Below are positions 2,782 through 57,328 of a DNA stretch of 64,000 nucleotides, piece after piece. The notes under the pieces were generated by a model, which searched no databases, was not told the DNA's origin, and saw only the letters and a list, made by a program, of their open reading frames with translations. How positions within the stretch are numbered: position 1 is the stretch's first letter; each line of letters begins with the position of its first letter. The position numbers were made by a program, and so were the translations under genes. The DNA is from Desulfovibrio aminophilus (GTDB lineage: Bacteria > Desulfobacterota > Desulfovibrionia > Desulfovibrionales > Desulfovibrionaceae): NCBI RefSeq assembly GCF_023660105.1, contig NZ_JAMHGA010000015.1, positions 62,001 to 126,000 on the forward strand, given 5' to 3'.

Positions 2782-3966
2782 ATGATTCCGGTTCCCAAGG
2801 ACTTTCTCTTCGGCGCGGCGGCGGCGGGCTTCAAGCGGCCCGACCGGCTCGACCTGGGCGTGATCCTGAGCGCCCGCCCGGCCCAGGCCGCCGGGGTCTT
2901 CACCACGAACAAGTTCCAGGCCGCGCCCGTGCTCGTCTGCAAGGAACGCCTGAACGCCTCGCGCACGGCCCGCGCCCTGCTGGCCAATTCCGGCCAGGCC
3001 AACGCCTGCACCGGCGAGGAGGGCCTGCGCAACTGCCGCCTGACCCAGGAGATGGTGGCCAAGGCGCTCAAGATCGAGCCCGGCGAGGTCCTGCCCGCGT
3101 CCACCGGCGTCATCGGCGCGCAGCTCAGGGTGGACAAGTGGAAGGAGGCCGTGCCCGCGCTCAAGAAGAGCCTGGGCCAGGTCGACGCCATGGGCTTCGC
3201 CCGGGCCGTGATGACCACGGACAAGTTTCCCAAGGCCGCCTGGAGTTCCGTGCGCGTGGGCGGCAAGGAGGTGCGCCTCCTGGGCATGGCCAAGGGCGCG
3301 GGCATGATCAGCCCGAACATGGCCACCATGCTCGGCTTCGTGCTCTGCGACGCGGACGTTGAGCCGGACTCCTGGCGGGAGATGCTCCGCTCCTGCGCCG
3401 ACCGCTCCTTCAACCGCGTCACCGTGGACGGCGACACGAGCACCAACGACTGCATTCTGGCCCTGGCCAACGGCGCGTCCGGCGCGCGGGTCTCCGGCCG
3501 GGAGGCCAACGTCGCCCTGGAGGCCGCCCTGCTGGAGGTGCTCCAGGGGCTGGCCTACATGATCGTGCAGGACGCCGAGGGCGGCACCAAGGTGGCCCGG
3601 ATCAGCGTCACCGGCGCGGCCGACGCCGCCGACGCCGAGCGCGCGGCCCGGGCCGTGGGCAACTCGCCCCTGGTCAAGACCGCGCTCTTCGGCCAGGACC
3701 CCAACTGGGGCCGCATCGTGGCCGCCGTGGGCCGCTCCGGGGCCGAGTTCGAGCCCGAGGACATGGTGCTCAGCCTGGGCGGGGTGGTGATCTTCGAGAA
3801 GGGCCGTCCGGCCTCCGGCGACCTGGACGGCGTGCTGGCCCCGATCATGCGCAGGCAGGACATCGACATCCGCGTGTCCCTGGGCGCGGGGCCCGGTGAA
3901 TACTCCCTGCTGGCCTCGGACCTGACCAAGGAATACGTGGCCATCAACGCGGACTACAGGACCTGA
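2782..3966 (+). CDS. argJ: Bifunctional ornithine acetyltransferase / N-acetylglutamate synthase
   Basis: A 394-residue ArgJ. It transfers acetyl from N-acetylornithine to glutamate in cyclic arginine synthesis and may also use acetyl-CoA. The self-cleavage site is seen in KGAGMISPNMATML, where Thr182 would become the new N-terminal nucleophile of the beta chain. Other family blocks are visible (ANSGQANACTG, DGDTSTND, GQDPNWGRI). Start chosen by AGGAGG six bases before the ATG; the open frame extends much further upstream without family similarity. The HD-domain gene begins four bases after the stop, so the two are probably co-transcribed. Confidence 0.95.
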   Translation: MIPVPKDFLFGAAAAGFKRPDRLDLGVILSARPAQAAGVFTTNKFQAAPVLVCKERLNASRTARALLANSGQANACTGEEGLRNCRLTQEMVAKALKIEPGEVLPASTGVIGAQLRVDKWKEAVPALKKSLGQVDAMGFARAVMTTDKFPKAAWSSVRVGGKEVRLLGMAKGAGMISPNMATMLGFVLCDADVEPDSWREMLRSCADRSFNRVTVDGDTSTNDCILALANGASGARVSGREANVALEAALLEVLQGLAYMIVQDAEGGTKVARISVTGAADAADAERAARAVGNSPLVKTALFGQDPNWGRIVAAVGRSGAEFEPEDMVLSLGGVVIFEKGRPASGDLDGVLAPIMRRQDIDIRVSLGAGPGEYSLLASDLTKEYVAINADYRT

Positions 3967-20178: not shown

Positions 20179-21555
20179 TCAGCCCCATTCCTTGCCGGGG
20201 TTCATGATTCCCTGGGGATCGAAGACGGCCTTGACCCCGCGCATGAGCGCGATCTCCTCGGGCCCGTGCCGCCAGGGCAGGTAGGCCCCCTTGGTCAGGC
20301 CCAGGCCGTGTTCGCCGGAGAGCGTGCCGCCCAGGTCCAGGGCCGCGCGCAGGACGGCCTCCTTGGCCGAGGCCGCGCGGCGCAGCTCGTCGGGCTTCTG
20401 GGCGTCGAAGAGCACGTTCACGTGGATGTTGCCGTCGCCCAGGTGGCCGAAGCAGGCCACGCGCAGGCCGTTGGCGCGCCCGGCCTCGCGGAACGCGGCC
20501 ACGGCCGCCGGGATGCGCCCCCGGGGCACGGCCACGTCCTCGGCGGCCTTGTCCGGGCCCACGCGGTGCAGGGCCTGGCTCACCGTGCGCCGCACCTCCC
20601 AGAGCTTTTCCTCGGCCTCGGGCGTGGCCGCCGTCTCCAGGGCCAGGGGCCTGAGCGGGGCCAGGACCGTCTTGAGCCGGTCCAGGTCCGCCAGCACCGC
20701 CCCGGCCGAGCCGTCCAGGCGGTAGAGCAGGGCCGCGCCGGAATCCGCCGGGCACAGGGCGCAGCCCGCGTCGGCCACCGCGCCCAGGGCCGTGGCGTCG
20801 AGAAATTCCAGGGACACCGGCAGGATGCCCGCCTCGAATCCGGTCCGGGCCGCGTCCAGGGCCGCCTCCAGGGAGGCGAAGGCGCAGAGCAGCGAGGCCT
20901 GGGCCTCGGGCAGGGGCAGGAGCTTGAGGGTCAGCCGGGTGATGAGTCCCAGCGTGCCGCCGGAACCCACGAAGAGCCGCGTCAGGTCCAGGCCCGAGAC
21001 GTCCTTGTGGCAGCGGCCGCCCGCGCGGATGATCCGGCCGCCGGGCAGGGCCGCCGAGAGTCCGAGCACGTAGTCCCGGGTCACGCCGTACTTCACCGCG
21101 CGCATGCCCCCGGCGCAGGTGGCCGCGTTGCCGCCGATGGTCGAGTAGCCCGCGCTGGCCGGGTCCGGCGGGTAGAACAGACGCTGTTCCCGCAACCGGG
21201 CCTGGAACGCGCCCGTGACCACCCCGGGCTCCACCTCGGCCACGAAGTCCGCCGCGTCCACGTCCAGGATCTTGTCCATGCGCAGCATGGAGACCACCAC
21301 CCCGCCGTGTTCGGGCACGGCCCCGCCCACCCGGCTGGTGCCCCGGGCGCGGGGATACACGGGCAGGTTCTCGGCCTGGGCGAAACGCAGGAACTCGGCC
21401 GCCTGCTCGCCGGTCTCGGGCCGGACCACGGCCCAGGGCCGGGCGAAACGGCGCGAGGCGTCCGCGCCCAGGGCCAGGGCCTGCTCCGGATCCAGGACGC
21501 AGCCGTCGCCCGGAAACAGCGAGAGCAGAGATTCTTTCTGACGATCGGTCAGCAT
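20179..21555 (-). CDS. FAD-linked oxidase, GlcD/D-lactate dehydrogenase-like
   Basis: About 458 residues of the FAD-binding (PCMH) oxidase family. It has PVYPRARGTSRVGGAVPEHG for the FAD pyrophosphate, GGNAATCAGGMRAVKYGVTRD, and a C-terminal HLGDGNIHVNVLF and SGEHGLGLTKG with the family's active-site His. It oxidises a 2-hydroxy acid such as D-lactate or glycolate. The likely electron partner is the CCG protein at 15955. Start chosen at MLTDRQKES; an in-frame ATG at 21576 is also possible. It begins an operon with the diguanylate cyclase nine bases downstream. Confidence 0.85.
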   Translation of the reverse strand: MLTDRQKESLLSLFPGDGCVLDPEQALALGADASRRFARPWAVVRPETGEQAAEFLRFAQAENLPVYPRARGTSRVGGAVPEHGGVVVSMLRMDKILDVDAADFVAEVEPGVVTGAFQARLREQRLFYPPDPASAGYSTIGGNAATCAGGMRAVKYGVTRDYVLGLSAALPGGRIIRAGGRCHKDVSGLDLTRLFVGSGGTLGLITRLTLKLLPLPEAQASLLCAFASLEAALDAARTGFEAGILPVSLEFLDATALGAVADAGCALCPADSGAALLYRLDGSAGAVLADLDRLKTVLAPLRPLALETAATPEAEEKLWEVRRTVSQALHRVGPDKAAEDVAVPRGRIPAAVAAFREAGRANGLRVACFGHLGDGNIHVNVLFDAQKPDELRRAASAKEAVLRAALDLGGTLSGEHGLGLTKGAYLPWRHGPEEIALMRGVKAVFDPQGIMNPGKEWG

Positions 21556-26682: not shown

Positions 26683-26839
26683 CGGGCATGTCCTGGCGGC
26701 GATTTGGGGTGCGCGCCGCGAGGGCGGAGTCTCTCACAGGGGGCTTTCCGCGTCCAGGCCCGGCCCGGCGACGGGGGCGGCTGGGTATTTTGGAAAAGGG
26801 GGTTGCCTCCCTGGGTGAAAAGGCGTAGTCCGGGAGTGA

Positions 26840-26931
26840 GTGTTACGAAATATTAAATTATTCACATGATTCAATCACTAAAGATGACTAAAATATTTGT
26901 ATTAAGCTGAGTGGTGTGTAAATCGTAACAC
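26840..26931. promoter_or_regulatory. Widely spaced 9-bp inverted repeat, candidate operator
   Basis: GTGTTACGA (26840-26848) and its exact complement TCGTAACAC (26923-26931) bracket 74 bases of AT-rich DNA. The right half-site overlaps the -10 of the candidate hydG promoter. The spacing suits two separate sites or a looping regulator. The factor is not identified; the motif does not match the BirA operator I know. Confidence 0.4.
26897..26924 (+). promoter_or_regulatory. Candidate sigma70 promoter for the hyd maturation operon
   Basis: TTGTAT, 16 bases, TAAATC. The implied transcript has a leader of about 150 bases before hydG. Confidence 0.35.
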
Positions 26932-27082
26932 GAATAGGGTGCGGGCACTGGCCGGGGACGGGCCCCGGACGGTCGGAAACCGGCCGGCCGCAAGGCCGCC
27001 CGGTTCTCCCCGCCGCGCCGGAACGGGAACGCGGCCCGGCCGGGACACGGGCGAAGGCCGCGAGGGACAACGGAGGCTTCAG

Positions 27083-28483
27083 ATGAACGACGCGACGCGG
27101 GCGGACTGGGTGGACGAGGAGCGGATCGCCAAGGCCATGCGGGCCGGGGACGAGGCTCCCAAGGGCAAGGTCCGGGAGATTCTGCTCAAGGCCCTGGACA
27201 TGCAGGGCTTGGACTTGGACGACGTGGCCGTGCTTGCGGCGATCCGGGACGAGACCCTGTTGCGCGAGCTGTTCCAGACGGCCCGCAAGGTCAAGGAGGA
27301 GATCTACGGGCGGCGGCTCGTGCTCTTCGCGCCCCTGTACATCTCCAACCTGTGCAGGAACGAGTGCCTGTACTGCGCCTTCCGGGCCTCCAACAAGGAA
27401 CTCAAGCGCCGCGCCCTGAGCCAGGAGGAGATCGCCGAGGAGACGCGGATCATCATCCGCCAGGGCCACAAGCGCATCCTCCTGGTGGCGGGCGAGTCCT
27501 ACCCGGAGAAGAAGGGCTTCGACTACGTGCTGGAGTCCATCGCCACCTGCTACGCCACCAAGGAGGGCCCGGGCGAGATCCGGCGCATGAACGTCAACGT
27601 CGCGCCCCTGACCGAGGCCCAGTTCCGCGACCTGAAGGCCACGGGCATCGGCACCTACCAGGTCTTCCAGGAGACCTATCACCGCGACACCTACGCCAAG
27701 GTGCACAAGACCGGGCCCAAGACCGACTTCGACTGGCGCGCCACGGCCATGGACCGGGCCATGCGCGCGGGAATCGACGACGTGGGCGTGGGCGTGCTTT
27801 TCGGCCTGTATGACTGGCGCTTCGAGATGATGGCCCTCATGCAGCACATCGCCCACCTGGAGAAGGAGTTCGGCGTGGGCTGCCACACCATCAGCGTGCC
27901 GCGCATCGAGCCCGCCTCGGGTTCGGACATGGCCTCGGCCCCGCCGCACGCGGTGAGCGACGACGACTTCCGCAAGATCGTGGCCATCCTGCGCCTGGCC
28001 GTGCCCTACACCGGCATGATCATGTCCACCCGCGAGAACGCGGACATGCGCCGCGAGACCCTGGCCCTGGGCGTGTCCCAGATCTCGGCGGGCAGCCGGA
28101 CCAACCCCGGCGGCTACGCCGAGGACGAGCAGTTCGACGCCAGCCAGTTCCAGCTGGGCGACCACCGCTCCCTGGCCGAGGTCATCGCCGACGTCTCCGA
28201 ACTGGGCTACATCCCCTCCTTCTGCACCGGCTGCTACCGCCTGGGCCGCACGGGCCAGGACTTCATGGACATGGCCAAGCCCGGGCTCATCAAGGAGAAG
28301 TGCGGGCCCAACGCCCTGTCCACCTTCCAGGAGTACCTGCGCGACTACGCCCCGGTGGACCTGGGCCGCATCGGCGAGCGGGCCATCGGCCGCGAGCTGG
28401 AGGACATGGCCCCCAAGACCCGGCGGGTGGCCGAGCGCATGCTGGAGAAGGTGCGCGAGGGGCGGAGCGATGTGTTCTGTTGA
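27083..28483 (+). CDS. hydG: [FeFe]-hydrogenase maturase HydG (radical SAM tyrosine lyase)
   Basis: A 466-residue HydG. It cleaves tyrosine to make CO and cyanide ligands for the H-cluster. The AdoMet cluster cysteines are C91, C95 and C98 (CRNECLYC). The C-terminal auxiliary cluster ligands CTGC and, after 22 residues, a further Cys in LIKEKCGPN are present. Start fixed by GGAGG six bases upstream. The downstream aspartase-like gene overlaps by 14 bases. No hydrogenase structural gene is in the window. Confidence 0.96.
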   Translation: MNDATRADWVDEERIAKAMRAGDEAPKGKVREILLKALDMQGLDLDDVAVLAAIRDETLLRELFQTARKVKEEIYGRRLVLFAPLYISNLCRNECLYCAFRASNKELKRRALSQEEIAEETRIIIRQGHKRILLVAGESYPEKKGFDYVLESIATCYATKEGPGEIRRMNVNVAPLTEAQFRDLKATGIGTYQVFQETYHRDTYAKVHKTGPKTDFDWRATAMDRAMRAGIDDVGVGVLFGLYDWRFEMMALMQHIAHLEKEFGVGCHTISVPRIEPASGSDMASAPPHAVSDDDFRKIVAILRLAVPYTGMIMSTRENADMRRETLALGVSQISAGSRTNPGGYAEDEQFDASQFQLGDHRSLAEVIADVSELGYIPSFCTGCYRLGRTGQDFMDMAKPGLIKEKCGPNALSTFQEYLRDYAPVDLGRIGERAIGRELEDMAPKTRRVAERMLEKVREGRSDVFC

Positions 28484-29909
28484 CGCCGTCAAGCGAGGGG
28501 AGGCCTGCGGGCCTCCCCCGTCCACGCGCGTGGAGCGCGACGCCCTGGGCGAGCGGGAGATTCCGGCCGGGGTCTATTGGGGCGTGCACACGGCCCGGGC
28601 CCTGGAGAACTTTCCCCTGAGCGGGCGGCCGCCGCATCCGGCCCTGGTGGCGGCCCTGGCCCAGGTGAAGCTGGCCTGCGCCCGGGCCAACGCCGAGCTG
28701 GGATATCTGCCCGCGCCCGTGGCCGAGGCCGTGGCCCTGGCCTGCGGCGAGGTCCTGGACGGCAACCTGGGCCGGGCCGTGGTGGTGGACGCGCTGCAGG
28801 GCGGCGCGGGAACCTCCACGAACATGAACCTGAACGAGGTGCTGGCCAACCGCGCCGAGGAGATCCTCGGCGGGCGGAAGGGCGAGTACGCCCTGGTCCA
28901 CCCGCTGCGACACGTGAACCTGCACCAGTCCACCAACGACGTCTATCCCACGGCGGTGCGGCTGGCGGCCATCGGGCTCCTGCGGGAGCTGGAGCGGGCG
29001 GTGGCCGGGCTCCAGGCCGCCTTCCAGGAGAAGGAGGCGGAGTTCCGCGATGTGCTCAAGGTGGGCCGCACCCAGCTCCAGGACGCCGTGCCCCTGACCC
29101 TGGGCGCGGAGTGCTCCGCCTGGGCCGAGGCCCTGTCCCGCGACCGTTGGCGGGTGTTCAAGTGCGAGGAGCGGCTGCGGGTGGTCAACCTGGGCGGCAC
29201 GGCCGTGGGCACCGGGCTCACCGCGCCCAGGGACTACATCTTCCTGGTGGTGGAGAAGCTGCGCGAGATCACGGGCCTGGGCCTGTCCCGGGCCGAGAAC
29301 CTGGTGGACGCCACCCAGAACGCCGACGCCTTCGTGGAGGTCTCGGGCATTCTCAAGGCTCACGCCGTGAACCTGTTCAAGATTTCCTCGGACCTGCGGC
29401 TGCTCGGCTCCGGCCCCCGGGCGGGTCTGGGCGAGGTGCGGCTGCCCCCGGTGCAGGCCGGGTCGAGCCTCATGCCCGGCAAGGTCAACCCGGTGATCTG
29501 CGAGGCCGTGGGTCAGGCCGCGTTGCGGGTCCTGGCCGAGGACCAGGCCGTGACCCAGGCCGCCCAGCTCGGCCAACTGGAGCTGAACGCCTTCATGCCC
29601 CTGCTGGCCGAGGCCCTGCTCGGCGGCCTGAGCCTGCTCGCCCGCGCCGACGCGCTCTTTCGCGAGCGCTGCGTGGCCGGGCTCGGCGCGGACCGGGAGG
29701 CCTGCGCCGCGCACCTGGAGCGCTCCCAGGCCCTGGCCACGGCCCTGGTGCCGCGCCTGGGCTACGATCTGGCCGGGGAGATCGCGGTCCAGTCCCGGGA
29801 CTCGGGCCAAGGCGTGCGCGAGGTGATCCTGGCGCGCGGCCTGCTGGAGCCCGGGGAGCTGGACCGCCTGCTTTCGGCGGAGGCCATGACCGCCCTGGGG
29901 CGCCGCTGA
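28470..29909 (+). CDS. Aspartate ammonia-lyase/fumarase family enzyme of the hyd operon
   Basis: A 479-residue member of the aspartase/fumarase class II family. It has the N-terminal GEREIPAGVYWGVHTARALEN-type segment, QGGAGTSTNMNLNEVLANRA, HVNLHQSTNDVYPTAVRLA, and the signature loop GSSLMPGKVNPV with its catalytic Ser. It likely releases ammonia from aspartate (or a related substrate). It lies between hydG and hydE with overlaps on both sides, a position which in some other bacteria is filled by a lyase of this family. A role in supplying nitrogen for the bridging amine of the H-cluster is an attractive inference, not shown here. Confidence 0.88.
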   Translation: MCSVDAVKRGEACGPPPSTRVERDALGEREIPAGVYWGVHTARALENFPLSGRPPHPALVAALAQVKLACARANAELGYLPAPVAEAVALACGEVLDGNLGRAVVVDALQGGAGTSTNMNLNEVLANRAEEILGGRKGEYALVHPLRHVNLHQSTNDVYPTAVRLAAIGLLRELERAVAGLQAAFQEKEAEFRDVLKVGRTQLQDAVPLTLGAECSAWAEALSRDRWRVFKCEERLRVVNLGGTAVGTGLTAPRDYIFLVVEKLREITGLGLSRAENLVDATQNADAFVEVSGILKAHAVNLFKISSDLRLLGSGPRAGLGEVRLPPVQAGSSLMPGKVNPVICEAVGQAALRVLAEDQAVTQAAQLGQLELNAFMPLLAEALLGGLSLLARADALFRERCVAGLGADREACAAHLERSQALATALVPRLGYDLAGEIAVQSRDSGQGVREVILARGLLEPGELDRLLSAEAMTALGRR

Positions 29910-30913
29910 TGGGCCCCGCGTGTCTCCTGGAGTCCCCGGCGGTCCTGAACCGGGCGCGCATTCTCGACGGCCTGCTGGCCCCGGACCCCGGGCCCCTGTT
30001 CAGCGCGGCCGACGCCGTGCGCCTGCGGGTCAAGGGCAGCGGCGTGTTCCTGCGCGGGATCATCGAGTTCTCCAGCCACTGCGTCCGCAACTGCCTCTAT
30101 TGCGGTCTGCGCCGGGCCAACACGCGGGCCGCGCGCTATCGCCTGGATCCGGACACCGTGGTCCGGCTGGCCGTGGGCATCGCGGCCCGGGGCATCGGCA
30201 CGGTGGTGCTCCAGTCGGGCGACGACCTGGACTACCCGGCGGCGGAGATCGCCCGCATGGTGCGCGAGATCAAGCGCCGGGCGGACATGGCCGTGGTGCT
30301 CAGCGTGGGCGAGCGGGAGCCCAGGGAATACGCGCTCTGGCGCGAGGCCGGGGCCGACCGCTACCTCATGAAGCACGAGACCTCGAACCCCGGACTCTAC
30401 GCCCTGCTCCATCCGGGCCGGACCCTGGCCCAGCGGCTCTCGGCCCTGCGCACGCTCAAGTCCCTGGGCTACGAGATCGGCACGGGCTTCATCATCGGCC
30501 TGCCCGGCCAGACCCCGGAAATCCTGGCCGAGGACGTGCTCCTGGCGCGCGAGCTGGGCGCGGACATGTGCGGGGTGGGGCCCTTCGTGCCCCAGTCCCG
30601 CACGCCCCTGGCCGCCGAGCCGCCGGGCAGTCCGGAGCGCACGCTGCGGGTGGTGGCCTTGCTGCGGCTGGCCTCGCCCGGGCTGAACCTCCCGGCCACC
30701 ACGGCCCTGGCCACCCTGGACCCGGCGGCGGGCCAGACCCGGGCGCTCCGGGCCGGGGCCAACGTGATCATGCCCAGCTTCACGCCCACGGAAGCGCGGG
30801 CCAAGTACCGCATCTACGACAACAAGGCCGAGGTGGACCTGGCCGCGGCTCTCGACGCGGCCACGGCCGCCGGGCGCTGCGTGGTCAGGGACGGAAAAGT
30901 GAGGATCGGATGA
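29909..30913 (+). CDS. hydE: [FeFe]-hydrogenase maturase HydE (radical SAM)
   Basis: A 334-residue HydE with AdoMet cluster cysteines C58, C62 and C65 (CVRNCLYC). IGTVVLQSGDDLDYP and YLMKHETSNPGLYALLHPG are family blocks. HydE builds on a HydG product during H-cluster assembly. Its ATG overlaps the upstream TGA by one base, and its own stop overlaps the hydF start, so the operon is tightly coupled. Confidence 0.94.
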   Translation: MGPACLLESPAVLNRARILDGLLAPDPGPLFSAADAVRLRVKGSGVFLRGIIEFSSHCVRNCLYCGLRRANTRAARYRLDPDTVVRLAVGIAARGIGTVVLQSGDDLDYPAAEIARMVREIKRRADMAVVLSVGEREPREYALWREAGADRYLMKHETSNPGLYALLHPGRTLAQRLSALRTLKSLGYEIGTGFIIGLPGQTPEILAEDVLLARELGADMCGVGPFVPQSRTPLAAEPPGSPERTLRVVALLRLASPGLNLPATTALATLDPAAGQTRALRAGANVIMPSFTPTEARAKYRIYDNKAEVDLAAALDAATAAGRCVVRDGKVRIG

Positions 30914-32148
30914 ACGAGGCTCCCAAGGGATTGCGGCTGCACATCGGCATCTACGGCCGCCGCAACGTCGGCAAGTCGTCGCTGCTGAACGCCCTGTCCG
31001 GGCAGGACGCGGCCATCGTCTCGGACACCCCGGGCACCACCACGGACCCGGTGGAGAAGACCCAGGAACTCGCGCCCCTGGGGCCGGTGGTCTTCATCGA
31101 CACGGCCGGGATCGACGACGAGGGCGACCTGGGCGCGCTGCGCGCGGAGCGGACCATGAAGGCCCTGGAGCGCACGGACGTGGCCCTGCTGGTGGCCGAG
31201 GCGGAACGCTGGAGCGCCTACGAGGAGGGGCTCGTCTCGGTCCTGTCCGAGCGCAAGATTCCCTTCGCCGTGGTCTTCAACAAGGACGACCTGGCCGCGC
31301 CTCCGGCGGAGCGCGTGGCCGCCCTGGAACAGGCCGGGGTCAGGACCATCCGGACCTCGGCGGCCCAGGGCCGGGGCATCGGCCTGGTCAAGGAGGCCCT
31401 GGCCGGGCTGGCCCCGGAGGACTGGTTCCAGGAGCCCCGGCTCCTGGGCGACCTGCTGCCCGCCGGGGAGCTGGCCGTGCTCGTGGTGCCCATCGACCTG
31501 GGCGCGCCCAAGGGCCGTCTCATCCTGCCCCAGGTCCAGGCCATCCGCGACATCCTGGACAGCGACGCGGCCTGCATGGTGGTCAAGGAGCGCGAGCTGC
31601 GCGACGCCCTGGAGCGGCTGAACCGCAAGCCCCGGATCGTGGTCTGCGACTCCCAGGTGGTGCTCAAGGCCGCCGGCGACACCCCGCCGGACGTGCTCCT
31701 GACGACCTTCTCCATCCTCATGGCCCGTTTCAAGGGCGACCTGGCCCGGCTGGCGCGCGGCGCGGCTGCCATCGAGAAGCTGCGGCCCGGCGACCGGGTG
31801 CTGGTGGCCGAGGCCTGCTCGCACCACCCCCTGGCCGACGACATCGGCCGGATCAAGATTCCACGCTGGCTGCGGCAGTACGCGGGCGGGGACATCGAGG
31901 TCGTCAACGTGGCGGGCCGGGACTTCCCGGAGGACCTGGAGCGGTACCGGCTGGTGGTGCATTGCGGGGCCTGCGTGGCCAACCGCAGGCAGATGCTCAC
32001 CCGCATCCAGCGGGCCGAGGGCCTGGGCGTGCCGATCACCAACTACGGCCTGGCCATCTCCTACGTGCAGGGCGTGCTGCCGCGCGTGCTGGACCCCTTC
32101 CCGGCGGCCCGGGAGGCCTTCCTGGAGGCCCGGCGCGCGGCGCGTTGA
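30910..32148 (+). CDS. hydF: [FeFe]-hydrogenase maturation GTPase/scaffold HydF
   Basis: A 412-residue HydF. The GTPase P-loop is GRRNVGKSSL (residues 16-25), with DTPGTTTDPV and DTAGIDDEG switch segments and FNKDD. The C-terminal cluster ligands CSHH and HCGAC match the HydF metal site, where the 2Fe precursor is assembled before transfer to the hydrogenase. Its ATGA overlap with hydE fixes the start. It ends the operon; rsmI converges seven bases away. Confidence 0.95.
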   Translation: MNEAPKGLRLHIGIYGRRNVGKSSLLNALSGQDAAIVSDTPGTTTDPVEKTQELAPLGPVVFIDTAGIDDEGDLGALRAERTMKALERTDVALLVAEAERWSAYEEGLVSVLSERKIPFAVVFNKDDLAAPPAERVAALEQAGVRTIRTSAAQGRGIGLVKEALAGLAPEDWFQEPRLLGDLLPAGELAVLVVPIDLGAPKGRLILPQVQAIRDILDSDAACMVVKERELRDALERLNRKPRIVVCDSQVVLKAAGDTPPDVLLTTFSILMARFKGDLARLARGAAAIEKLRPGDRVLVAEACSHHPLADDIGRIKIPRWLRQYAGGDIEVVNVAGRDFPEDLERYRLVVHCGACVANRRQMLTRIQRAEGLGVPITNYGLAISYVQGVLPRVLDPFPAAREAFLEARRAAR

Positions 32149-32154
32149 GCGGCG

Positions 32155-32997
32155 TCAGTCTTCGCGCAGGGCGCTCAGTTTTTCGTAGGCTTCCTTGGCG
32201 CTCCAGCCCGGGGCCCGGGACGCGGCGCGGCGGGCCACCTCGCGGGGCTTGCCTCCGCGCGCGGATTCCTCGCGCAGCAGGTCCAACAGGGCCTCCTCGG
32301 TCAGCCGGGCCGGGGTCTCGGGCGGGCCCACCACCACGGTGATCTCGCCCAGGAATTCCTCGGGCAGGGCGTCCAGGGCGTCCAGGCGGCCCTGGATGAA
32401 CTCCTCGAACTCCTTGGTCAGTTCGCGGGCCACGCAGAACTCCCGGGGGCCGAGGACCTCGGCGGCCAGGGCCAGGGTGGCGGCGAGCCGGGTCTTGCGC
32501 TCGAAGAAGACCAGGGTGGCGGGCAGGGCGGCGTAGGTCTCCAGCAGGCGGCGGATGTCGCCGTCCTTGCGCGGCAGGAAGCCGAGAAAGACGAAGGGCA
32601 GGGGCGGCAGGCCGCAGGCCGAGAGCGCGGCGATGGGGGCCGAGGGCCCGGGCACGGGCGACACCGGCACCCCGGCGGCGCGGCAGGCGCGCACGAGGCG
32701 GTAGCCCGGATCCGAGAGGAGCGGGGTGCCCGCGTCCGAGACCAGGGCCACGCTCCGGCCCTCGGACAGGGCGGCCAGGACCTGCTCCACGCGGGCCTCC
32801 TCGTTGTGCTCGAAGAGGCTCAGGAAACCCTTGGAGGGCAGGCCCAGGCGCTGGAACAGGAGCCCGGCGCGGCGGGTGTCCTCGGCCAGGACCAGGTCCG
32901 CCGAGGCCAGGACCTCGCGGGCCCGGGGCGAGAGGTCACCAAGGTTGCCAAGCGGCGTGGCCACCACCCATAGCCGGGCTGAAGGCGTCGCGCACAT
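32155..32997 (-). CDS. rsmI: 16S rRNA 2'-O-ribose methyltransferase RsmI
   Basis: A 280-residue RsmI, which methylates C1402 of 16S rRNA. Blocks visible: [55 protein letters not shown] and SPVPGPSAPIAALSACGLP. Start at MCATPS, seven bases after AGGAG; an ATG at 33015 lacks a comparable site. It overlaps the end of yraN by 62 bases, an unusually long overlap. Confidence 0.94.
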   Translation of the reverse strand: MCATPSARLWVVATPLGNLGDLSPRAREVLASADLVLAEDTRRAGLLFQRLGLPSKGFLSLFEHNEEARVEQVLAALSEGRSVALVSDAGTPLLSDPGYRLVRACRAAGVPVSPVPGPSAPIAALSACGLPPLPFVFLGFLPRKDGDIRRLLETYAALPATLVFFERKTRLAATLALAAEVLGPREFCVARELTKEFEEFIQGRLDALDALPEEFLGEITVVVGPPETPARLTEEALLDLLREESARGGKPREVARRAASRAPGWSAKEAYEKLSALRED

Positions 32998-34153: not shown

Positions 34154-34507
34154 TTACTCCCAGATCTGCTTGGACTTGATGCGCGAGGCCTTGCCCTTGA
34201 GTTCGCGCAGGTAGTAGAGGCGGCTCCGGCGGACCTTGCCCTCGGAAACCACCTCGACCCGCTCGATGAAGGGCGAGTGGAAGGGGAACACGCGCTCGAC
34301 GCCCACGCCGTCCGACATCTTGCGCACGGTGAAGGTGGAGCCGACACCGCCGCGGTGCACGCGGATGATCACACCCTGGAAGACCTGGATGCGCTCTTTC
34401 TCGCCCTCGATGATGCGCAGGTGGACCTTGACGGTGTCCCCGGCCTTGACCGCCGGGATGTCCAGGCGCATCTGCTCGGCTTCGATGTTCTTCAGGATGG
34501 CGTTCAT
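34154..34507 (-). CDS. rplS: 50S ribosomal protein L19
   Basis: A 117-residue L19 with [60 protein letters not shown] and the basic C-terminal [25 protein letters not shown] lies eight bases before the ATG; codons upstream in frame are not part of the family. It is the last gene of the ribosomal operon. Confidence 0.97.
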
Positions 34508-34544
34508 GTCTTGATCTCCTTGTTCGGGAAAACCCGATTTCTTC

Positions 34545-35837
34545 TCAATATGCATCGCCCAGGAGGCGGTCCACGGTGATGCCCAGGGCCGCCCGCACGG
34601 GCAGGTGGTTGTATCCCCCCAGGAAGCGGATCGGCGCGAGCCGCGCGTCCGCCAGTCCCAAGGCCTCCGGGGCCAGGCCCGATCCCGTTCCGAAGAGCAG
34701 GAGCACGGGGCCTTGGGCCAGCCGTTCCCGCACCTCGCCGGGGCCGATCATGGGCGGCCCGCCGCGCTCGAAGCGCGCGCTGGTGGCCAGCACGAAGGGC
34801 CGTTTTCCGGCCCGCCGGGCCACGTCCTCCACGGCCTCGGCGATGCCCGCGAGCACCTCCGTCCGTTCCAGGGCCTCGGCCCGGTCCGGGTTGGCCGCGC
34901 CTCCCGGTCCCTCGGTCCAGTGTCCCAGAAGGGTCCTCGCCAGCCGCCGCTGGTCCTCCAGCGGGGTGAGCACATAGGCCCCTCCCAGATCATAGGAGCG
35001 GGAAACGCGGGACATATCGTGAACGTCGAGATTTGTCAAAGAGACAGTGACGGTTTCTCCGGCTCGGTTCTTCACCGGGTGGTGGCAGAGCCCCAGGTAG
35101 AGGCAGCGGCCGAGCCCGGAATGCGGCCGACGGCGCAGGAATTCCGCGTCCGGCCGGGTCAGGGGCGCGCCGGAGAGAAGTTCCGGCCGCTGCCGGAGCG
35201 TGGTGGCCAGGGACTGCTCCCGACGCCAGGTTTCGATGCGGGCGTGGTCGCCGGAGAGGAGCACCTCGGGCACGGACAGGCCCTCGAAGACCTCGGGCCG
35301 GGTGTAGTGCGGATATTCCAGGAGCCCGGCGGAAAAGCTCTCCTCGGTCCCGGACTCCTCCTTGCCCATGAACCCGGGCAGGAGACGGCCCACGGCCTCC
35401 AGCAGGCAGAGGGCCCCGGACTCGCCGCCGGTGAGCACGAAGTCGCCCACGCTCACGGGCTCCACGGGGAACAGCTCCATGATCCGCTCGTCCAGGCCCT
35501 CGTAGCGGCCGCAGATGAGCGTCAGGTCGTCGCCCCCGGCGGCCAGCTCCCGGGCCAGGGCCTGGGTCAGCGGGCGGCCGCGCGGGGTGAGCAGGAGCAT
35601 GCGCCCCGGGGCGTCGATGCTCCGCAGGGCCCGGGCCAGGGGATCGGCCTGCATGACCATGCCCGGCCCGCCGCCGTAGGGCCGGTCGTCCACGTGCCGG
35701 TGCTTGTTGGTGGAGAAGTCGCGCGGGTTGACCAGCTCGAAGTCCACGATGCCCGCCTCGCGCGCCTTGCCCATGAGCCCGGCGGACAGGGGGGAGTCGA
35801 AGAACTCCGGGAAGAGGGTCACGAGATGGAAACGCAC
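34545..35837 (-). CDS. trmD: TrmD tRNA (m1G37) methyltransferase fused to a second RNA methyltransferase-like domain
   Basis: A 430-residue fusion. Residues 1-240 are TrmD ([77 protein letters not shown]), which methylates tRNA at G37. Residues 245-430 ([49 protein letters not shown]) look like the SAM-dependent RNA methyltransferase domain found in Desulfovibrio-type TrmD, from memory. The start is GTG, eight bases after AGGAG. The AT-rich alien gene ends 19 bases upstream. Confidence 0.93.
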
Positions 35838-35846
35838 GGCCAGGAC

Positions 35847-36782
35847 TCCTGGTCAGCTATTCCTCATCATTTCTGATGATCAAAATTGTTTTTGTGGTGT
35901 TTGCTGTTATGCGGGGAGCATTATCAATGTCTAATGCTTCGCGGAGATCTTGAACGAGAGATTTCCTATTAACCTGATCATTCGCTATTGAATCAAGTAC
36001 TCCAGCAAGCCAAATCCTGCTGTCGTAAGCGGCCCCATTTGTCATTGTGTCTGTCGAGGGATCAATGGGCGTCCCGATTTGAACGTTTATCAGCGAAGAT
36101 ATGAAGCCGTATGTACAGGCTGATATTTGATTTTCATTAAAAATGTATTGTGAACAAGGCCTAAATTTGTTTCCACAGCATTTCAGTGATGTTGTGAACA
36201 CAACATATCGAGATGTAGTCTGTTGGTTTAGTGGGTTTATATTATCTGCTGCACAAAATATGATGTTATTATTATTATTATTTAGTTTTGAAAAAACAAT
36301 GAATGCTCCAACAGTGCTACATATGGCATCTGATAAAATGTTTGGCGGTATGGAGTTATTATTTTTTACTGCCTTGATAGATGGTCTATATCTTAGCAAA
36401 TACCACTGCTTCTTGTCAGCTTTAAATTGTATTGTATTAATACACTGCGGATGTTTATATTTTTTTTTGTCGTATTTAGCCTGCAAAAAAGCAATTCTAA
36501 GTTCAAATGCTGGCCTTTTTCTGTAGGATATTAATAATAAATCCGCAAGTTCACATCGCGCAGGAAGGCGCCCAAGCCAATTCGGCGCGGGATGGCTCAC
36601 GGGATGAAAATCAACAAAACTTTTAGCACCATGATATATCTCAGCTGTTATATTGCACGAAACGCTGTTGATAGCTGTTTCTAGGTTCTTGAAACACGCA
36701 ATCTCCTTATCGCAACTCCCTGAGTTAAATGCGTTGATAATCTTATTAATAATTGGTGTGCTCATTTTTTATCCGGGTCAGC
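35847..36782. mobile_element. AT-rich insert bounded by an 11-bp direct repeat
   Basis: TCCTGGTCAGC (35847-35857) and TCCGGGTCAGC (36772-36782) match at 10 of 11 bases and bracket the AT-rich gene. One copy covers the end of the upstream gene (its TGA), the other precedes the trmD ribosome-binding site. Without the insert the two genes would join at one copy. The composition changes abruptly at both edges; 36181-36240 holds 22 G/C in 60, against over 40 in most lines around it. No transposase or integrase is present. Confidence 0.6.
35857..36765 (-). CDS. AT-rich acquired gene; possible PD-(D/E)XK-like nuclease (unknown family)
   Basis: A 302-residue cytoplasmic protein with no signal or membrane segment. 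WLGRLPARCELADLLLISYR (63-82) and RIAFLQAKYDKKK (90-102) place Glu72, Asp75 and Gln95-x-Lys97 in the order of a PD-(D/E)XK nuclease core. A hexa-Asn run near 164-169 comes from an ATT-type triplet repeat. It is rich in Asn, Ile and Lys, unlike all neighbours, and its codons are A/T-ended. It starts 12 bases after the substrate-binding protein gene and ends 19 bases before trmD, so it could ride on the ribosomal operon transcript. I do not recognise the family; a defence or restriction role is inference. Confidence 0.7.
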   Translation of the reverse strand: MSTPIINKIINAFNSGSCDKEIACFKNLETAINSVSCNITAEIYHGAKSFVDFHPVSHPAPNWLGRLPARCELADLLLISYRKRPAFELRIAFLQAKYDKKKYKHPQCINTIQFKADKKQWYLLRYRPSIKAVKNNNSIPPNILSDAICSTVGAFIVFSKLNNNNNNIIFCAADNINPLNQQTTSRYVVFTTSLKCCGNKFRPCSQYIFNENQISACTYGFISSLINVQIGTPIDPSTDTMTNGAAYDSRIWLAGVLDSIANDQVNRKSLVQDLREALDIDNAPRITANTTKTILIIRNDEE

Positions 36783-37524
36783 GCGGGCGGTTGAGGATGG
36801 CCACCAGGGTCCCGTCCGCGCGCATCTCCGCCAGGGCCTTGTCGAAGGCGGGCATGAGCCCGGCCGCCGCGCCGTGGCGGTTCAGGTGCAGGTGGAAGGC
36901 GATCTCGTCCAGGAACACGCCGGGCACGCGCAGCACCTGGGCCGAGAGGCCCAGCCGGGCGGTCTGGAACTCCACCACCTCGGGCGCCTGGGCCATGACC
37001 TGGGCGTCGCCCCGGGCCAGGGCCGAAAGGGCCTCGGCCAGGTTGGGGTAGATGGTCAGGTCGAGGCCCGCCAGCCTGGCCTGGGACCAGGAGTCGTAGC
37101 GCGAGGCGCAGAGCTTGAGCCCCTTGAGCCCGTCCAGGCCGTGCGCGAGGCGCAGCTGCTGGATCAGGGGCTCGTAGCTCAGGCTCACGAAGAGGCCTAT
37201 GGAGGTGGTCAGCACGGGCGCGGCGCTGTGCACGCTGAAGGCGTCGTAGTCCGGGGAGGGTACGGAGAGGAAGCCGTCGGCCCCCAATCCCTTGACCTTG
37301 GCCGCCACCTCGCCGCCGGGCAGGGCCTGGTGGCTGACCGTGACGCCCATGCGCCGGGCGGCCTCGTCCATGATGTCCGGCAGGATGCCCGCGACCTGGC
37401 CCTGGCTGGTCCAGGAGAAGGGCGCGAAGCCCTCGGCGTAGACCATGCGCAGCGCGGCCTGTTGGGCCCGGGCCGGGACGGCCGGGAGCAGCAGCAGCGC
37501 CAGGAGGAGGACGACGGTTTTCAC
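36778..37524 (-). CDS. Periplasmic amino-acid-type substrate-binding protein (SBP_bac_3)
   Basis: A 248-residue secreted protein. The signal peptide is VVLLLALLLLPAVPARAQQ, then LRMVYAEGFAPFSWTSQGQV and GILPDIMDEAARRMGVTV, typical of the PAAT/SBP_bac_3 fold. It probably binds a small ligand in the periplasm; no permease genes are near. Its GTG start overlaps the rimM stop (GTGA), so it is translated with rimM inside a ribosomal operon, an odd place for such a gene. Confidence 0.85.
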   Translation of the reverse strand: MKTVVLLLALLLLPAVPARAQQAALRMVYAEGFAPFSWTSQGQVAGILPDIMDEAARRMGVTVSHQALPGGEVAAKVKGLGADGFLSVPSPDYDAFSVHSAAPVLTTSIGLFVSLSYEPLIQQLRLAHGLDGLKGLKLCASRYDSWSQARLAGLDLTIYPNLAEALSALARGDAQVMAQAPEVVEFQTARLGLSAQVLRVPGVFLDEIAFHLHLNRHGAAAGLMPAFDKALAEMRADGTLVAILNRPR

Positions 37525-38072
37525 TGCTGGTCCTTGATGTACAGGTCCAGGAGTCCCTCGGGCGGTTCCACCACCGCGACGCGGGCGTCCAGGTCGATGT
37601 CCAGGACGAACTCCGGGGTGGCGGGCAGCAGGATCTCGCGGCCCTCGGGGTCGCGGATCGCCCAGGTCTCCTGCCCGCCCGCGAAGAGGAAGCCCGTCAG
37701 CTCGCCGAGCGGGCGGCCGTCCGGCAGGCGCACGGCCAGGCCCTCCAACTCGTGGAGGTAGACTTCGTCCTCTTCTGGTTCAGGGAGGTCGGCGGCCGCC
37801 ACGGCCACTTCCAGACCGCGCAGGGCATCGGCCGCGTCGCGGTCCGAGACGCCCCGCAGGGTCAGGAGCATCCGGCCCTGGTGGGGCCGGGAGCCGAGCA
37901 CGGCGTATTCCCTGGCGCGGCCGCCGGGACGGCGCAAAAACACCCGTCCCGCTTCCTCGAAGAGAAAAGGGGAGTCCGCATGGCAATCAATGCAGAGCTC
38001 CCCCCGGACTCCGTGGGGCTTGACGACCGCCCCCACGGCCACGAGGCGGTCGCCGGGGGCTGTGGCGGACAT
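37521..38072 (-). CDS. rimM: 16S rRNA processing protein RimM
   Basis: A 183-residue RimM, which binds S19 and helps mature the 30S head. VAVGAVVKPHGVRGELCIDC opens the N-terminal domain, and a C-terminal PRC-barrel follows (VYLHELEGLAVRLPDGRPLG, GREILLPATPEFVLDIDLDA). It is seven bases from the KH gene and overlaps the substrate-binding gene. The usual order rpsP-KH-rimM-trmD-rplS is interrupted after it by two genes. Confidence 0.94.
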   Translation of the reverse strand: MSATAPGDRLVAVGAVVKPHGVRGELCIDCHADSPFLFEEAGRVFLRRPGGRAREYAVLGSRPHQGRMLLTLRGVSDRDAADALRGLEVAVAAADLPEPEEDEVYLHELEGLAVRLPDGRPLGELTGFLFAGGQETWAIRDPEGREILLPATPEFVLDIDLDARVAVVEPPEGLLDLYIKDQQ

Positions 38073-57043: not shown

Positions 57044-57050
57044 GGAATGC

Positions 57051-57079
57051 GTGACATTGTATTTATTTTTTGATATAAA
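57051..57079 (+). promoter_or_regulatory. Sigma70-type promoter for the DUF3606 gene
   Basis: GTGACA, 17 bases, TATAAA, in an AT-rich stretch right after the potD stop, and about 24 bases before the start codon. Confidence 0.5.
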
Positions 57080-57102
57080 GACGGCGGACAGGGAGGTCTG
57101 CC

Positions 57103-57279
57103 ATGCCTGATGATGAGACGAAACGCGCACCGCTTGACAACAAACGGATTGATGTCGACGATCCAGCGGAGGTGCGCAACTGGTGCAAGTCATTCGGATG
57201 CAGCGCGGCTGAATTGAAAAAGGCGGTGTCCGAAGTCGGGACGTCGGCCGCCGCGGTAAAGCAGCATTTAGGCAAGTAG
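57103..57279 (+). CDS. DUF3606 domain small protein
   Basis: A 58-residue protein. RIDVDDPAEVRNWCKSFGCS and AAELKKAVSEVGTSAAAVKQ match the DUF3606 pattern of a short helical protein. GGAGG lies six bases before the ATG. It has its own AT-rich promoter and an intrinsic terminator, so it is an independent unit. Composition is lower in G+C than its neighbours. Function of the family is unknown. Confidence 0.8.
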   Translation: MPDDETKRAPLDNKRIDVDDPAEVRNWCKSFGCSAAELKKAVSEVGTSAAAVKQHLGK

Positions 57280-57296
57280 CGCATCATTGAATCCAG

Positions 57297-57328
57297 AGGC
57301 CCGTTCGGCAACGCCGGGCGGGCCTTTT
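57297..57328 (+). terminator. Intrinsic terminator after the DUF3606 gene
   Basis: AGGCCCG pairs with CGGGCCT, enclosing a second CGGC/GCCG stem with loop AAC, and is followed by TTT. It touches the stop of the convergent dinB gene. Confidence 0.75.

Follow-up and report, generated by a model that had tools for sequence, protein, structure and literature searches.

The rimM–trmD interval and its AT-rich gene

On the minus strand of the window (the whole 64-kb stretch of DNA that was analysed), the gene order is taken to be ffh, rpsP, a KH-domain gene, rimM, a family-3 solute-binding-protein gene (SBP), an AT-rich ORF, trmD and rplS. The operon genes are named from sequence and order, except for SBP and trmD, which are backed by Pfam (Table 1). 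SBP is present in the rimM–trmD interval of all three genomes of the genus (the window genome, G001 and G002) and was not found in the rimM–trmD loci of the other genera tested; it may itself be an older insertion.

Table 1. Coordinates of the features at the locus and of the genes compared with the AT-rich ORF
Feature	Location	Strand	Remarks
rimM	37521–38072	-	named from sequence and order
SBP, family-3 solute-binding-protein gene	36778–37524	-	PF00497
Upstream repeat copy	36772–36782	-	forward strand TCCGGGTCAGC, operon sense GCTGACCCGGA
Inserted AT-rich segment	35858–36771	.	914 bp; absent from G001 and G002; 37.4 % GC, flanks about 72 %
ORF, candidate stand-alone PD-(D/E)XK-type nuclease	35857–36765	-	302 aa; nuclease reading inferred
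Supposed nuclease motif, ORF codons 75–97 (D75 ... Q95-x-K97)	36475–36543	-	conserved in the Hymenobacter relative; catalytic role inferred
Downstream repeat copy	35847–35857	-	forward strand TCCTGGTCAGC, operon sense GCTGACCAGGA
trmD with fused C-terminal RNA methyltransferase domain	34545–35837	-	PF01746 + PF09936
rplS	34154–34555	-	named from sequence and order
Hymenobacter relative, split by an IS3-family element	L051:5965–8061		NZ_CP043645.1
Mrr-like nuclease gene, AT-rich	L092:896–1792 (G596), L093:1344–2237 (G594)
FRG-domain gene	L085:1487–2344 (G017), L101 gap 2818–3705 (G658)

The insert consists of 6 nt before the ATG of the ORF and the ORF minus its final stop base, with no second gene. 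In 400-bp windows across it, GC content passes from 0.72–0.75 to 0.35–0.44 and back to 0.73, the abrupt switch that a first-pass annotation of this DNA had described, and the insert is the sole place below 50 % GC in the 64 kb (300-bp windows, 100-bp steps). GC by codon position in the ORF is 0.40/0.39/0.35; the GC3 of 0.35 compares with 0.87–0.97 in the five operon genes measured. When the bases of the ORF interior were shuffled 20,000 times, in-frame stops appeared every time, and the ORF is real, as a relative exists on a Hymenobacter plasmid.

Mobility functions were sought within the insert. No transposase is matched by Pfam, in line with the first-pass annotation, and a single ORF leaves no room for one. 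Terminal inverted repeats do not exceed chance, with 61 % of 2,000 shuffles reaching the end-to-end score. Likewise, no methyltransferase partner of a restriction-modification system is present, the sole ORF of the insert being adjoined by SBP and trmD. The only tRNA found by the tRNA scan is located at 20356–20449, with none near the insert, and no RNA family is matched at the insert; one match outside of it is to a microRNA model and falls far below cut-off. Promoter scanning returned four promoter-like sites (1.8 ± 1.4 expected), two of them inside the ORF on the operon strand, and terminator scanning returned one terminator-like site (1.5 ± 1.2 expected).

Edge repeats and empty sites

The two 11-bp repeat copies sit exactly on the edges of the insert and are identical at 10 of 11 positions. 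The upstream copy contains the stop codon of SBP (TGA) and a GGA located 6 nt before the ATG of the ORF, while the downstream copy supplies the last base of the TAG of the ORF and the greater part of the GGAG that precedes trmD. A search of both strands of the window for TCCKGGTCAGC returns these two copies alone. Of 61,161 other positions in the window compared at the 925-base offset of the two copies, 4 agree at 10/11 or better, and the direct repeat claimed at both edges is thus better than chance.

Empty sites are evident in both other genomes of the genus (G001 and G002), in which SBP is followed directly by trmD and no match to the ORF is found; the distance from the SBP stop to trmD is 14 nt in G001 and 11 nt in G002. 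G001 is the nearest relative, collinear with the window in long blocks at 91–94 % identity, and carries the repeated stretch once, minus one base. The flanks of the insert are 92–94 % identical to G001, and at the join their matches to G001 overlap over 7 identical bases. Read in the operon sense, the G001 junction is GCTGACC-GGAG, 8 nt and the GTG of trmD. In the window, the SBP-side junction reads GCTGACCCGGA, TAAAAA and the ATG of the ORF, and the trmD-side junction reads GCTGACCAGGAG, 8 nt and the GTG of trmD. The duplicated target, GCTGACCNGGA in the operon sense, is present twice round the insert. The G002 join is shorter, differs too much for the site to be recognized and shows no sign of the repeat.

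Collinearity with G001 is also lost elsewhere in the window. Approximately 5.5 kb at 26701–32164 has no counterpart at the collinear place in G001, and an ORF lying partly within this segment is presumably a HydF-like GTPase sequence. At 57044–57320 collinearity breaks, with ~2.7 kb in G001 and ~0.3 kb in the window.

The edge repeat looks like a target-site duplication, and from the compared junctions an insertion with target duplication appears almost certain. As the duplicated stretch holds both the SBP stop and the GGA before trmD, both neighbours are intact: the GGAG of trmD remains 8 nt away, the distance found in G001, and the end of SBP is unchanged. The same duplicated GGA stands 6 nt before the ATG of the new ORF and probably serves as its ribosome-binding core, albeit a short one. 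The empty sites and the better-than-chance repeat thus uphold the insertion proposed by the first-pass annotation, and the 302-aa ORF does run in the orientation of the operon with SBP and trmD unbroken. That annotation had also suggested a selected cargo gene; of this, the insertion stands, and selection is plausible only, not being measurable on an ORF found in one genome.

The encoded protein and its relatives

No family in Pfam, NCBIfam, PHROGs or PADLOC is matched by the ORF protein, and no convincing match was found among PDB sequences. The Pfam searches include no homing-nuclease domain for the ORF, and those with PADLOC, extended to both pieces of the Hymenobacter relative, include no known anti-phage defence model. 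The single-sequence structure model of the protein is unusable (pLDDT 33 throughout). The ORF would add a protein family that is missing from the curated libraries searched.

The ORF is present in one copy in its own genome. At E ≤ 0.001, a search of 395 genomes drawn from the phylum returned the window's own ORF alone; 36 other matches, with E values of 0.037–0.89, were taken as chance, being short and in many cases containing stops. Profile A1 identified, among the 348 genomes of the order, the window's own genome only, plus a weak match in G521 (0.0096), which was judged spurious given an in-frame stop and overlap with an opposite-strand ORF. Scans that need shared short peptides or pairwise similarity, and which can therefore miss distant relatives, confirmed none in genome contigs, none in viral contigs at the protein level and none in phages. 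Three viral contigs raised by a motif scan have frames unrelated to the ORF.

The only relative detected came from the plasmid scan, in a single record (Hymenobacter sp. NBH84 plasmid NZ_CP043645.1), with a match over residues 16–145 at 30.5 % identity (tblastn E 2e-4). An annotated 131-aa piece aligns with ORF residues 14–145 (pairwise E 7e-13), and a frame behind an IS3 gene aligns with residues 151–234 (pairwise E 3e-4). Since the two pieces align in order, the Hymenobacter gene is colinear with the ORF and is interrupted by the IS element. Both genes end at about the same place, with the alignment being weak beyond residue 234. As queries on plasmids, the Hymenobacter pieces find only themselves. 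Surrounding the Hymenobacter relative are the IS3 transposase, integrase and recombinase genes, and genes for an AAA-domain protein and a DarT-family protein.

Residues E21, E42, H45, E72, D75, Q95 and K97 are identical in the ORF and the Hymenobacter relative, a comparison of two sequences only. In members of the PD-(D/E)XK superfamily, a conserved acidic residue is followed by D and after that by (D/E/Q)xK. In the ORF, the motif is the QxK variant, with glutamine replacing aspartate or glutamate. It is these E, D and QxK residues common to both proteins that suggest a nuclease, and they are the ones to test. Judged on E21, E42, D75 and Q95-x-K97, the ORF protein is a somewhat probable candidate for a PD-(D/E)XK-type nuclease; its role in defence is a tentative, though quite possible, reading.

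Occupants of the interval and origin of the inserted gene

The spacing between rimM and trmD was measured in genomes for which matches to both genes were listed and lay adjacent on the same strand (n=130). The sample comprises 51 genomes from the set of relatives (leaving out another 6, whose matches are non-adjacent or on other contigs), 77 of 82 further genomes typed from order-wide listings (matches non-adjacent in the other 5) and two added genomes, G658 and G659. Order-wide data are the best-scoring matches of 348 genomes, genomes with rimM and trmD on different contigs being left out, and the sample is weighted to near relatives. Among the matches listed, median spacings are 55 and 62 bp. 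Spacing exceeds 600 bp in 9 of the 130 listed: G000, G001, G002, G017, G018, G034, G594, G596 and G658. As a control, the trmD–rplS spacing is at most 258 bp in the 54 genomes measured (3 more have the genes on other contigs).

SBP occupies the gap in G000–G002, together with the ORF in G000. The gaps of G018 and G034 contain no long ORF on the operon strand. G594 and G596, which belong to one genus, have an AT-rich spacer (42 and 39 % GC, respectively) with an ORF matching Mrr_cat (PF04471) at 22.6 bits in G596 (cut-off 21) and at 16.0 bits, under the cut-off, in G594. These Mrr-like proteins have no PADLOC match. Four other genomes of the same genus have spacers of 8–270 bp without the Mrr-like gene. 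In another genus, the gap of G017 holds an FRG-domain gene (PF08867, 2.7e-30), the protein of which matches the PADLOC phage-defence candidate PDC-S15 at 2.1e-43; a similar ORF is apparent by eye in the gap of G658, of the same genus. G676, with a spacing of 439 bp, has a 75-aa ORF (L094:407–634) that is presumably tautomerase-like.

Like the window ORF, the Mrr-like gene is a single AT-rich gene of comparable length that lies in the rimM–trmD interval in the operon orientation and ends a few bases before trmD. Unlike with the ORF, no clear target duplication could be made out there, and relatives of the Mrr-like gene lie on five plasmid records. The two proteins share no sequence similarity, and a profile comparison of the ORF with the G594/G596 pair gave a probability of 0.1 %. 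The FRG-domain/PDC-S15 gene, too, is a lone gene in the interval, unrelated to the ORF and matching a defence candidate, but it has a different domain, a GC content of 0.64–0.65 that is close to that of the surrounding DNA, and is found in both genomes seen of its genus.

The Mrr-like gene is present in 4 of the 348 genomes of the order (E ≤ 1e-15), twice in the rimM–trmD gap and twice elsewhere (G656 and G619), and thus is not tied to the site; by analogy, the window ORF may not be either. In G619, the distant Mrr-like gene (L111:1465–2406) is another single gene adjoining a housekeeping gene, the ORF beside it looking like a ferredoxin-thioredoxin reductase catalytic subunit.

On this evidence, unrelated single genes have entered the rimM–trmD interval on at least three occasions, across three genera. 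Among the five kinds of occupant, the Mrr-like and FRG-domain genes have nuclease or defence-candidate matches, the window ORF is putatively nuclease-like, and SBP and the tautomerase-like ORF are neither. The interval may be merely a permissive slot, given that SBP in this genus and the tautomerase-like ORF in G676 also occupy it.

A recently acquired stand-alone nuclease, inserted with a target duplication of ~11 bp and most likely defensive, is the best explanation for the gene, held at about an even chance; the insertion is well supported, and the function is what we infer. A single AT-rich gene would have been acquired recently by the lineage and placed between SBP and trmD, duplicating ~11 bp of target. 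The upstream stop codon and the GGA of the duplicated target would leave the signals of both neighbours in place, and the new ORF would be translated, by way of the borrowed GGA, from the transcript of the operon itself. The stand-alone PD-(D/E)XK-type nuclease would most likely act against foreign DNA. The Mrr_cat-matching and FRG-domain genes in the gap of two other genera favour this explanation, as do the transposase, integrase, AAA-domain and DarT-family genes around the Hymenobacter relative. Against it stand the absence of curated nuclease or defence models that fit the ORF, the disruption of the Hymenobacter relative by an IS element, and a gap that also takes non-defence genes, namely SBP and the tautomerase-like ORF. 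A broader, unlikely proposal is that in this bacterial family the gap before trmD is a recurrent docking place for bare nuclease or defence ORFs, reached by a transposase-free, target-duplicating route, and that the ORF founds a new nuclease family. The duplicated stop codon and ribosome-binding core would then form a ready-made slot, and the essential operon would express a defence gene at once, undamaged.

An apparently empty site can also arise when the DNA between short repeats is deleted, and the gene could accordingly be ancestral, lost by such deletion in G001 and in G002. This is extremely improbable in view of the GC3 of the ORF relative to that of the operon genes, the lack of a copy in the other 347 genomes of the order by profile A1 (bar the one spurious match), the lack of any sign of the repeat at the shorter G002 join, and the failure to find the gene at the corresponding position in an outgroup genus. 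More weight may be placed on a neutral or short-lived passenger, although it too is improbable: end-joining or template switching would have placed a foreign fragment whose gene does nothing useful, and only fragments leaving both neighbours intact would survive. Presence in one genome only, codon usage that has not yet become that of the host and an interval that accepts varied genes all agree with a passenger. However, the insert comprises the whole ORF and just 6 nt more, and the reading frame remains open over 302 codons; the boundaries of a random fragment would rarely coincide with the start and stop of a gene, and the Hymenobacter plasmid gene terminates at a similar position.

Free-standing homing endonucleases exist in phages such as T4, and the presence between intact genes of a lone ORF, nuclease-like and flanked by a short direct repeat, raises the possibility of a selfish nuclease of homing or restriction type, which would spread by cutting empty sites, the duplication being a filled-in staggered cut. 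Like the T4 type, the ORF lies between host genes with none broken. In the portion of the source available, restriction-modification genes are also reported to insert with long, variable target duplications (PMC3031569). A selfish nuclease is nevertheless quite doubtful: among the 348 genomes of the order, one alone has the gene at the site, the gene matches no Pfam homing nuclease, its protein shows no sign of recognizing the site, and no copy occurs there in other genomes; the Mrr-like gene of the same interval lies elsewhere in two of its four genomes. Alternatively, the ORF might encode a toxin or a defence protein with a different biochemical activity, built on a domain other than a nuclease. 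Profile and fold support for a nuclease is absent, and the FRG-domain gene demonstrates that occupants of the interval need not be nucleases, but the conservation in order of E21, E42, D75 and Q95-x-K97 makes this unlikely.

If the best explanation is right, a promoterless gene without mobility functions can join an essential operon unharmed, the duplicated target giving the upstream gene its stop and the new gene its ribosome-binding core. Extra ORFs inside core operons could be screened for undescribed defence genes.

No literature on insertions between rimM and trmD, or of single genes in operons, was found by title or start of abstract. Restriction-modification genes that inserted with a long duplication of the target were reportedly described by Nobusato et al. 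in 2000. Such insertion is the nearest precedent, as far as the available portion of PMC3031569 describes it: a (here probable) nuclease gene, no mobility genes and a duplicated target revealed through a close relative. In contrast, the present case involves one ORF, no methyltransferase and an 11-bp duplication, and its location is an essential operon in which a stop codon and a GGA core come from the duplicated target. The unusual points are that little besides an ORF was inserted and that the duplicated target carries both of these signals.
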